From Streptomyces sp. NRRL F-5630 (GTDB lineage: Bacteria; Actinomycetota; Actinomycetes; Streptomycetales; Streptomycetaceae): a DNA stretch of 64,000 nt. Location: assembly GCF_000719475.1 (NCBI RefSeq), contig NZ_JOGO01000001.1:62001-126000 (forward strand), read 5' to 3'. Below, in pieces: positions 1,194-8,800 of this stretch. Positions within the stretch are counted from its first letter, which is position 1; every line of letters begins with the position of its first letter. The notes below the pieces were generated by a model, which worked only from the letters and a program-made list of their open reading frames with translations, searched no databases and was not told the origin of the DNA. A program made the position numbers and the translations under genes.

Positions 1194-2429
1194 TCAGATC
1201 CACGCGTACTGGCGGTGGTGAGCGCGCACGCCGGTCAGGGCGAGCAGTGCGGGGCGGTCCGCGGCGCGGCGCAGGAGGGCGTCGTAGCGGCCGGGGTCGA
1301 TGTCGCGGTGGGGGGTGGGGCGCAGGCAAGCGCTGTTCTCTTCGAGCAGGGCGGTGTACTCGGTGAAGTCGAGGCCCGCGCGGGCCCGCAGCCGGGGACC
1401 GATGCGCGCCTCGGCGACGGCGGCGGCCGACTCCGGGCCCACGACGCCGCTGAAGAACTCGGAGGAGCAGCCGGAGCCGTAGGAGAAGAGGCCGATACGG
1501 GCGGGCCCGTCGAGCCGGGTGTGATCGAGCGCGCTCGCCAGGGCGAGGTAGAGCGAGCCGGAGAACAGGTTGCCGGTCTGGGCGGGGTGGATCAGCGAGG
1601 GCGCGACCCGGCGCTCGAAGTCCTCGGCCACCTTGTCGGCGGGGGTGCGATACAGCTCGCGCAGCAGGCGGCGGTGTGCGGCCCTCACCATGCCGGAGAA
1701 GGGCGTGTGCAGGGCGAGCAGGTCGAAGGTGGTCGCGAAGTCGGCGTCCTCCACACGGGACCGGTAGTCGGCGAAGCTGCGGGAGAAGCACTCCAGGTAG
1801 GCCATGAGGGAGCGGTCGGCGTCGGCGATGTCGAGGTCGGGGCCGGGGCGGGCGGAGTCCAGGGTCTCGAAGCTGTGCACGCCGAACGCGCCGAGATCGG
1901 CGGTGAGCACCCGGGGCCGGTCGCCGACGAGCAGGGCGACCGCGCCGGTGCCGGTGACCGGCTCGGCGTACTGGGCGCGCTCGTCGGCGAGGGACATGTC
2001 GGTGGAGACGATCAGCACCTTCGCGCCGGGCGAGAGCCCGGCGGCCAGGTAGCCGAGGGCGAGTTGCAGCGCGGCGGTGGCCGCGTAGCACGCCTGTTTC
2101 ATCTCCAGCATCCGGCAGGTCGGCGGCAGGCCGAGGTGTTCGTGCACGTAGGAGGCGATGGACTTGCTGTAGTCGATGCCGGACTCGCTGGTGGTGACGA
2201 GGAGTTCGATCCGCTCGCGGTCGGCGGGCGGAATACGGTCCAGCAGGGGGCGGGCGGCGTTGACGGCGTGGGTGACCGGGTCCTCGAAGGGAAGTGCCAC
2301 CGAGCGCCGGTCGGAGGCGACGTTGTCGAAGCGGCGCGGGTCGAGGCCGCGGCCGTCGAACACCGCGCGGGCGCTGACGGCGGCGCTGCCCGCGTACACG
2401 TCCAGCGCCTCGATTCCGTACCCGGTCAT
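1194..2429 (-). CDS. HMG-CoA synthase-like beta-branching enzyme (HMGS-1)
   Basis: A 411-residue HMGS, the normal length for PksG/LnmM/TaC-type enzymes. It adds an acyl-ACP-derived carbanion to the beta-keto group of an ACP-bound polyketide. All three catalytic elements are visible: Glu in TTSESGIDY (about residue 80), Cys in MKQACYAATAAL (about 113) and His in LALHTPFSGM (about 245). The C-terminal YGSGCSSEFFSG signature is also present. The ATG at 2429 overlaps the stop of the large PKS (ATGA), so the two are translationally coupled. A second HMGS lies at 46301-47533; the two are clearly homologous but divergent, so they probably have different partners. Confidence 0.93.
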   Translation of the reverse strand: MTGYGIEALDVYAGSAAVSARAVFDGRGLDPRRFDNVASDRRSVALPFEDPVTHAVNAARPLLDRIPPADRERIELLVTTSESGIDYSKSIASYVHEHLGLPPTCRMLEMKQACYAATAALQLALGYLAAGLSPGAKVLIVSTDMSLADERAQYAEPVTGTGAVALLVGDRPRVLTADLGAFGVHSFETLDSARPGPDLDIADADRSLMAYLECFSRSFADYRSRVEDADFATTFDLLALHTPFSGMVRAAHRRLLRELYRTPADKVAEDFERRVAPSLIHPAQTGNLFSGSLYLALASALDHTRLDGPARIGLFSYGSGCSSEFFSGVVGPESAAAVAEARIGPRLRARAGLDFTEYTALLEENSACLRPTPHRDIDPGRYDALLRRAADRPALLALTGVRAHHRQYAWI

Positions 2430-5815: not shown

Positions 5816-8800
5816 ACCGGGCACCGGGGCGGAGAAGCGGGCGGATCCGGCCGGCTCCGGTGGCCGGAGCCGCGCGACGCTCCGCTCGCCGTGCGTCGCG
5901 CAGAGGGCGTCGGTGAGCTGGTCCAGGGTGGGCCGCTCGAAGAAGAGTGCCTTGGGCAGGGCTCCGAGGCCGGTCTCCAGGGCGCTCACGCCCCGGAGCA
6001 TGTCGAAGGACGTGAAGCCGTTGTCCTCGAAGGTGACCTCCGGGTCGAAGGACCTGCCGAGCACCTGCTCCAGCACACGGCGCAGCGCGTCCCGGGCTCC
6101 GTCCCGGCCGGAGGGCGCCTCCCGCGCAGGCGCGGACGTCCCGGTGCTCGCGGGCGGCGTCGGCGGGATCTCGCGCGGCGCCGGCCGGGACGCGCGCGCT
6201 CCGATGGCGGTCAGTACGTGGTCGGCGAGCGTGGCGACGCTGTCGTACTCGTAGAGCTCGGCGCCCTGGAGGTCGAGGCCGTGGGCGTCGTTGAGGGCGC
6301 GGGCCACGTCCATGCGGTAGATGGAGTCGAGGCCGAGGTCGGCGAAGGGGGTGTCGTCCGCGAAGTCGGCGGCGGACCGGCCGAGGAGGTCGGCGACCAT
6401 GTGCCGCAGTGTGGCGCGGAGTTCGCTCGCGGCCGGTGCGGCGGAGGCGGGGGCGCCGCTCGCCCTCGTCGCCGGGGCACCGGCCGCGGCGGGGGGCACG
6501 GGCCGCTCGGGGGCCGGGGCTTCCGGTGGGGCGGCGGGCGCACCGGCGGGGGCCGCCGGCGCGGTCGTGGCGAGGGCGCGCAGCCGGACCCGCGGGCGGG
6601 CGGGGGCCGGGGGGTTCGTCCGCGGCTGCGGCTGCGCGGTCGTGGCTGCCTGGTCGGGGTGCGGCACGGGGGACTCCGTCCTTGCTGGCCGGGAGGTGGT
6701 GAACCAGTGGCGGCGGGGGTGGAAGGCGGTCCTCGGCAGCGGGCGCGCGCGGCCCGGCGGCCGGGTCGTGCCGTCGGGCGCCGTCCACGCCTCCAGGACG
6801 ACGTGGGCGTTGGTGCCGCCGAAGCCGAACGAGCTGATCCCGGCCCGCCAGACGGGCCGGCCGTGCTCGTCCTTGGCGCCCTCCCACGGGGTGGTCGTGG
6901 TGCCGATGCGGAACGGGGTGCCGTCCAGCCGGAGGTAGGGGTTGGTCTCGCGCAGGTGCAGGTGGGCGGGGAGGGTGCGGTGCCACAGGGCCAGCAGCAC
7001 CTTGAGCAGTCCGGCGATCCCGGCCGCCGCTTCGAGGTGGCCGATGTTGGTCTTCACCGAGCCGAGCGTGATGTGCGGCTCGCTCGGCACGATTTCGCCC
7101 CGGTCGCCGTAGAGGCGGGCGAAGGCGTCCTTCAGGCCCTCGACCTCGATCGGGTCGCCGAGCCGGGTGCCGGTGCCGTGGGTCTCGACGTAGGTGACGC
7201 CGGACGGGGCGACGCCGGCGATCCGGTGGGCGCGGGCCACGACCTCGGCCTGCGCGCGCGGGTTCGGGGCGGTGAGGGAGGGCGAGCGCCCGCAGTGGTT
7301 GACGGCGCTGCCCCGGACGACGGCGAGTATCCGGTCGCCGTCCGCCTCGGCCCGCTCCAGCGGCTTGAGCAGGACCGCGCCGACTCCTTCCCCCCGGACG
7401 TACCCGTCCGCGTCCTTGTCGAAGGTGGCGCAGCGTCCGGCGGCGCTGAGCATGCCGGACTGGTCGAAGACCCGGAACAGGCCCGGGCTCAGCACCAGGC
7501 TGACGCCGCCGACGATCGCCTCCTCGCACTCACCGTCCGCCAAGGCGCCGACCGCGCGGTGCAGGGCCACGAGGGAGCTGGAGCAGGCCGTGTCGACGGT
7601 CTCGCTCGGGCCGCGCAGGTCCAGCAGGTGGGAGACGCGGTTGGCGACCAGGGAGCGGGCGACGCCGGTGGCCATGTGGGCCTCGGTGTCCGCGCCGGAG
7701 CGGGCGATCAGCTCGCCGTAGTCCGAGGTGGCCATGCCGACGAAGACGCCGGTCGCGGTGCCCGCTCGGTCCTCCGGCCGGTAGCCGGCGTCCTCGAAGG
7801 TGCGCCACACCGTCTCCAGGAACAGCCGGTGCTGGGGGTCCATCAGCCGGGCCTCGGCCGGGGAGACCCGGAAGAACGCGGCGTCGAAGCCTGCCACGTC
7901 CGGGAGGAATCCGCCGCGCAGGCCCGCCGTGGCGGGGTCCGCCAGCAGGTCGGCGCGGTCCGGGGGGACGGGCCCGATCAGGTCGTCACCGGCGCTCAGA
8001 TGCCGCCAGAAGGCGTCCAGGTCCGGTGAGCCGGGAAGCCGCCCCGCCATGCCGATCACGGCCACGTCCCGGCGACGCGCGGCCCGGGGCGGCGGCGCGG
8101 AGGCGGGGGCGGGCGCAGTGGGGGGCTCGGGGGCGTCTCCCGCCTCCGGGGAGGCCGTGGGTGTCGCGGGCTCGGGCGCCGTGGGGGGCGCGGGCCGCGT
8201 GGTGGGCGCGGGCGCCGTCCCCGGCGCGGGCTCCGCCATCGGCTCGGGCACCGTCCCCGGCGCGGACACCTCCGTCGGCTCGGGGTGTGCGGCGCGGGCC
8301 TCCGCGGGGTGTTCGCGGCCCAGGTACTCGGCCACGTCGTCCAGGGTGGGGTGTTCGAACAGGATCGTCGGCAGGAGTTCGAGTCCGTAGTGGTCGTTGA
8401 CGCGGACGATCAGCTCGCTCAGCGAGATCGAGTCGAAGCCGAGGTCCATCAGTTCGGCGGAGGTGTCCACCTCCGCCGGGTCGACCATGAGGAACTCCGC
8501 AGTGCAGGACCGCAGTTGCCGTCGTATCGCCGCCGTCGGGACCACCGCGGCCGGGTGGCGGCCGCCGCTCGTGGGGTCCGTACGGGCCTCCTCCTGGTGC
8601 CCGGCGGACGCCTCGGCCGGAGCGGGCGCGGGGGCGGAGGGCGCCGGGGGCGTGGCCCGTCGCACGGGCAGCCACCGGTTGTCCGTGCCGGTGAGGGCGG
8701 CGCGGAAGACCGCGAGGCCGGTGTCCGTGGGCAGCGGCGCCATCGACCAGAGCTGCGCGAAGAGCCGGCGGGTGGCGTCGTCGACTCCCATGCCGCCGTC

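Follow-up and report, generated by a model that had tools for sequence, protein, structure and literature searches.

The window analysed here, a 64,000-nucleotide stretch of Streptomyces sp. NRRL F-5630 (contig NZ_JOGO01000001.1, positions 62,001 to 126,000), encodes a trans-acyltransferase (trans-AT) hybrid of nonribosomal peptide synthetase (NRPS) and polyketide synthase (PKS), one synthase of which ends in a KS-ACP-ACP-DUF-SH-TE module (window 2429-8071, minus strand, by Pfam and motif mapping). This module is real, well formed and of the guangnanmycin type. We are highly confident of the overall assignment, namely module 8 of a guangnanmycin-type synthase of the leinamycin family, with the hydropersulfide (-SSH) route proposed below and a guangnanmycin A-like product. 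The cluster is a new guangnanmycin-type Streptomyces relative of known machinery and is complete; PatB, a P450 and the terminal part of KS0 are encoded just beyond the window edge.

Terminal module and its SH domain

The minus-strand open reading frame (ORF) 2426..23977 encodes a 7183-aa protein of GnmT/LnmJ type whose domain order reads DH-ACP-KR-KS-ECH-ACP-KS-DH-KR-MT-ACP-KS-KR-ACP-KS-ACP-ACP-DUF-SH-TE. Pfam matches PF01212 (Beta_elim_lyase, E 3.8e-22) and PF09924 (E 1.5e-12) in this protein, together with KS and PP-binding domains and an alpha/beta hydrolase at the C-terminal end. Because the first two matches lie within a single open frame with a third-position GC of 0.94, a chance match is not an issue. 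With domain limits in window bases set by motif, the last module runs on the minus strand from KS8 (6782..8071, Pfam and motif, Cys-His-His intact) through ACP7 (6200..6424), ACP8 (5888..6094), the DUF domain (4808..5809), a low-complexity (TEPAS)n linker (4583..4804) and the SH domain (3275..4567) to a TE domain (2429..3205; Pfam Abhydrolase_1; GTSFGG, Ser7018) predicted to off-load and macrocyclise the chain. An earlier reading made from the letters alone (the sequence-only reading) had described two ACPs, a GNAT-like DUF, a pyridoxal phosphate (PLP) lyase and a TE at this terminus, and all were recovered. The linker itself consists of tandem units, six TEPAS and two KEPAS.

The two lyase motifs named in that reading, GGAPLSLENL and SLSKDFG, were located at synthase residues 6631 (window 4087-4058) and 6697 (window 3889-3869), and the segment 6430-6825 given there for the PF01212 search, which yielded the match above, fits residue numbers rather than window bases. 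The codon of the PLP lysine, Lys6700, lies at window 3878-3880; Asp6657 and Phe6572 are further residues of the site. The domain is 75% identical to PDB 9CEN, titled as the thiocysteine lyase domain of guangnanmycin biosynthesis. That SH is a degenerate or inactive passenger is very improbable, since its PLP lysine, aspartate, arginines and stacking phenylalanine are those invariant across 28 aligned SH domains, and its predicted model (pLDDT 92) superposes on 9CEN.

Phylogeny placed the window SH and 9CEN in one clade (SH-aLRT 100) in an SH tree rooted on one free lyase, from which loci L054-L088, L021, L034, L038, L040 and L049 were omitted as partial, frame-broken or unneeded. In a tree with three free lyases, the window SH lay inside a well-supported SH clade and away from those lyases; the free enzymes tyrosine phenol-lyase and tryptophanase are far from this clade. 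The three free lyases are long-branched and do not fall on one side of a branch, so that the tree resolves only weakly where SH domains end and free lyases begin. The domain thus groups with the guangnanmycin SH, apart from the free lyases included, and its alignment shows both the PLP lysine and the stacking aromatic. The sequence-only reading had the family right; within it, guangnanmycin rather than leinamycin itself stands closest among the described members.

In the literature, SH domains of the leinamycin family are thiocysteine lyases that leave a hydropersulfide (PMC8479088). By analogy, and judging from its sequence, we assign the window SH as a predicted thiocysteine lyase leaving -SSH, not a thiol. 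A PLP C-S lyase within a PKS, as claimed earlier, is therefore upheld, but the thiol after cysteine addition is not. Action on a plain cysteine adduct to leave a thiol, the alternative best able to compete, would agree with the first description of LnmJ-SH as a cysteine lyase and with the thiol carried by GNM B and LNM E1 (PMC8479088); it is nevertheless improbable, as GnmT-, LnmJ- and WsmR-SH act with 50- to 106-fold higher efficiency on a thiocysteine substrate mimic, thiols arise from the hydropersulfide by disproportionation (PMC8479088), and the window SH belongs to the clade of the guangnanmycin SH.

The tandem ACPs and their partners are likewise those of the family. In leinamycin-type modules, beta-branching occurs on the first of the two ACPs and the second works with the TE, each having five diagnostic residues (D35, R39, D/E41, Y60 and D63 in clade 1; T/S32, M36, R/K38, F56 and P59 in clade 2; PMC7618002). 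All ten were found by eye in ACP7, with the clade-1 residues of a beta-branching acceptor, and ACP8, with those of clade 2, in a numbering that we anchored by placing D35 and T/S32 directly before the carrier serine. The HMGS cassette of the family is complete, comprising on the minus strand the donor ACP (ACPd, 899..1174), the KS-like decarboxylase KS0 (1..902, continuing 399 bases past the window edge), an LnmM/WsmS-like second HMGS for module 8 (1200..2420, 59% identical to the HMGS of the Streptomyces sp. CB01635 cluster) and the dehydratase ECH1 (45505..46293). A first HMGS (46301..47536, minus) and an in-cis ECH (mECH; 18260..18955, minus; PF00378) likely belong to module 5.

At the level of the whole protein, the synthase is colinear with the GnmT-like P0005, whose SH shares 99% identity with 9CEN (75.6% identity over 7039 residues, all gaps below 60), and with the LnmJ-like protein of the leinamycin producer CB01635 (53%; loci L048 and L112-L115), which is ~420 residues shorter between the KS domains flanking mECH and whose SH and DUF are 43% and 56% identical to those of the window. 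The CB01635 cluster also holds counterparts of the NRPS, second PKS, A, PCP, AT proteins, two DUF6039 proteins, ECH1, one HMGS, the type II thioesterase (TEII) and PIG-L; within the 80 kb compared there, neither the window methyltransferase, PatB, phosphopantetheinyl transferase (PPTase) and glyoxalase nor, above 33%, KS0 had a match. The weishanmycin cluster, compared by description only (PMC7618002), resembles the window in KS0, one ACPd, two HMGS, ECH1, a cis mECH and a KS-ACP-ACP-DUF-SH-TE terminus. The leinamycin-family placement first proposed from the sequence is supported by the layout of module 8, the residues of its ACPs, the HMGS cassette, the colinearity with CB01635 and the DUF-SH trees taken together. 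Three groups of non-leinamycin DUF-SH synthases exist (PMC8479088), but the chance that the window merely borrows the didomain in this way is negligible, because their annotated modules carry a single ACP and lack a TE (PMC7618002), compared with its two ACPs of leinamycin-type residues and its TE, and because its entire synthase is colinear with LnmJ-like and GnmT-like proteins.

The arrangement is rare, as the sequence-only reading put it, only in relative terms: by 2021, the number of known DUF-SH clusters stood at 109 (PMC8479088), and 94 of 726 proteins scored matched the SH query here at E <=1e-20, 93 of which (P0095 being the exception) also matched the DUF query. Locus counts in this work rest on 80 of 135 confirmed loci from the genome scan, and SH is in frame in 78 of these 80. 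In L040 (Streptomyces sp. SPB074, an old draft), the SH match in the DUF frame spans 123 residues only, perhaps an assembly error.

Proposed hydropersulfide route and sulfur supply

The chemistry that we propose for SH, the methyltransferase and the ACPs is carried over from relatives (PMC8479088, PMC7618002). KS8 would extend the chain on ACP7, where the HMGS cassette (ACPd, KS0, second HMGS and ECH1) would install a carboxylated beta-branch to give an alpha,beta-unsaturated thioester. The DUF domain, the proposed adduct former, would then add thiocysteine at C-3, and SH, with PLP on Lys6700, would cut the cysteinyl C-S bond to leave -SSH. The chain would pass to ACP8 either before or after the sulfur step and be released by the TE as a macrocycle. 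A SAM methyltransferase (28049..28792, plus strand), a candidate hydropersulfide methyltransferase of GnmP type, probably caps the -SSH to a methyl disulfide, and on account of this capping a guangnanmycin A-like product is predicted.

Homologs of this methyltransferase occur at 87-91% identity in six clade genomes, at 90% in the genome of L011, at 76% in CB01201, at 72% in Saccharothrix sp. ST-888 and at 48% in CB02959, while no match at E 1e-30 was found in CB01635 or the genomes of L039 and L028.

A free C-S lyase of the PatB family is encoded ~1.9-3.2 kb past the left edge of the window (G000:C1:58824-60125, equal to L089:16821-18125, minus strand), adjoined by a P450 gene also outside the window. 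It scores 298 bits with TIGR04350, below that model's cut-off of 340, and 225 bits against the structure of a putative beta-cystathionase, whose Ser-Lys stretch it shares. PatB stands beside the synthase in 8 of the 80 loci (flanks of up to 10 kb), all of them of the guangnanmycin-type clade by DUF identity of at least 76%. Among 24 genomes searched, it is present at 73-89% in 7/7 clade genomes; of the 17 others, ten have matches of only 34-47% and seven have none at E 1e-30. PatB homologs less similar than those of the clade were listed by sequence alone. A dedicated part for PatB in thiocysteine supply would be plausible. The parts of PMC8479088 consulted name only housekeeping cystathionine gamma-lyases (CGLs), which act on cystine, as the thiocysteine source. 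Given this activity and a strong cystathionine gamma-synthase/lyase-type (CGL/CGS) gene in the host genome, we rejected PatB as the sole source; it would be an extra supply at most. Mycothiol as sulfur donor, suggested by a PIG-L family deacetylase (28873..29586, minus), was also set aside: PIG-L has a counterpart (54%) near the CB01635 cluster, and deacetylated mycothiol persulfide adducts showed no turnover (PMC8479088).

Several points weigh against the guangnanmycin-type assignment and its -SSH route. At 75% rather than 99% identity, the specificity of the window SH could differ from that of 9CEN. P0005 is taken as the best stand-in for GnmT on the strength of the 9CEN title and 99% identity, not of the gnm record MF925481. 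The methyltransferase is a candidate GnmP counterpart by family, position and distribution only, and in two clade genomes (G023 and G026) it lies on a separate contig from PatB, with no linkage seen. As its sequence diverges by ~25% from the sole experimental SH structure found, the window SH may serve as a comparator for hydropersulfide chemistry and in finding antitumour leads.

The DUF domain and a possible role of charged tRNA

How the DUF acts was named as an open question of the family (PMC8479088). By sequence profile and predicted fold, the DUF is closest to the aminoacyl-tRNA-dependent transferases MprF, Sbb17 and FemX, and its predicted model has the dupli-GNAT fold of the MprF/FemX branch. 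We take PF09924 to be the family once named DUF2156, a name that also stands for this type of domain in one PDB title. The candidatus acidobacterium Ca. Angelobacter carries, at the distant DUF-SH locus L088, two tandem tRNA-Cys(GCA) genes (7878-7953 and 8015-8091, plus strand), both with U73 and an altered T-loop, which have an AT gene on one side and the DUF-SH synthase on the other. In Caballeronia udeis, a cysteinyl-tRNA synthetase (CysRS) gene (L063:1837-3231, minus) follows directly after an RND efflux operon and diverges from the DUF-SH synthase; among the 120 matches listed, its product reaches only 80-81% identity to the three further Caballeronia entries. On the basis of the closest folds and profiles, the L088 pair and the L063 synthetase, we tentatively raise the possibility, itself doubtful, that the DUF is a tRNA-dependent sulfur loader, which would take thiocysteine or cysteine from charged tRNA-Cys and attach it via sulfur to the acceptor on the ACP, for SH to cleave afterwards. 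CysRS itself is a cysteine persulfide synthase (PMC5660078).

Three observations argue against tRNA loading. In the D-x-x-R stretch of MprF, whose residues we presume to be catalytic, the DUFs keep the aspartate, but the arginine is phenylalanine in 36/36 DUFs. Genes for tRNA-Cys and for CysRS were each found in 1 of the 80 loci, near chance level, and the window has neither. Even so, the DUF fold and these two loci turn the open step into a direct question, whether charged tRNA is needed. We did not meet the tRNA-loading or PatB-supply ideas in the literature as judged by titles and abstract openings, most subscription journals being outside the coverage of that search.

Paired tRNA-like elements in Fulvivirga (L077:7803-7955 and L067:1606-1759, plus strand) were considered as support for tRNA use and rejected, as they are without a GCA anticodon and may be an unrelated RNA locus. 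They have 8-base anticodon loops, come after a 461-aa gene without Pfam match and are conserved in two species upstream of DUF-SH synthases. Of the other ARAGORN default matches, the ordinary-looking tRNA-Met of L070 and tRNA-Leu of L083 were not used, nor were tRNA-Leu (L086), tRNA-Val (L061), tRNA-Gly (L069), tRNA-Ala (L029) and an unassigned match (L024); relaxed thresholds gave at least 285 matches, which were discarded.

Other genes of the cluster and its surroundings

Upstream of the synthase gene lie a free A domain (23869..25815, minus, 55%) and a free PCP (25494..25985, minus, 44%), for whose counterparts we assume the names LnmQ and LnmP, respectively; the A ORF shares its 5' part with the PCP ORF and is probably non-coding over this overlap. 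The NRPS (49256..56428, minus) comprises PCP, condensation/cyclisation, A, PCP, an oxidase of the nitroreductase family and KS. Its A domain has a Cys-like signature matching that of the LnmI-like NRPS, and this we take to be Cys-specific. A second PKS (36764..43042, minus; KS..KR-ACP-KS) is LnmI-like at its C-terminus. Of the seven module KS domains, six keep Cys-His-His; in the seventh, on the NRPS protein, the HGTGT histidine is gone (AECAASGALL). The NRPS, free A/PCP pair and six elongating KS domains cited in the sequence-only reading are therefore all present, and the counts of free A/PCP, one Cys-type NRPS and six intact KS fit an eight-module hybrid NRPS-PKS, module borders being inferred.

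Two proteins contain AT domains. The first trans-AT (31740..34082, minus), presumably of the AT-ER type, has a C-terminal region, and the inserted helical domain of FabD was matched in it as well; the second is encoded at 43179..45458 (minus). The first AT gene is flanked by genes for two DUF6039 proteins without assigned function (30722..31762 and 34079..34978, both minus), a pairing also seen around an AT gene of the CB01635 cluster. A phosphopantetheinyl transferase (47498..48448, plus, start not fixed) and a type II thioesterase (48454..49293, minus) are also encoded.

Streptomyces sp. SPB074 has the same gene order as the host from PatB through the OmdA/globin ORFs, except that the N-terminal portion of the second PKS did not map among the three best SPB074 matches. 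Past this stretch, the genes for ADH, LysR, esterase, SpoIIE, luciferase and sortase went unmatched in the 80 kb of SPB074 compared. At window 56468-57778, an OmdA-like (plus) and a globin-like (minus) ORF overlap on opposite strands and both are matched in SPB074; perhaps one is real per stretch. To the right of the window (L090:4510-19998, minus) lies a separate large NRPS with ABC transporters, in which five C and four A matches were found over 4999 residues scanned.

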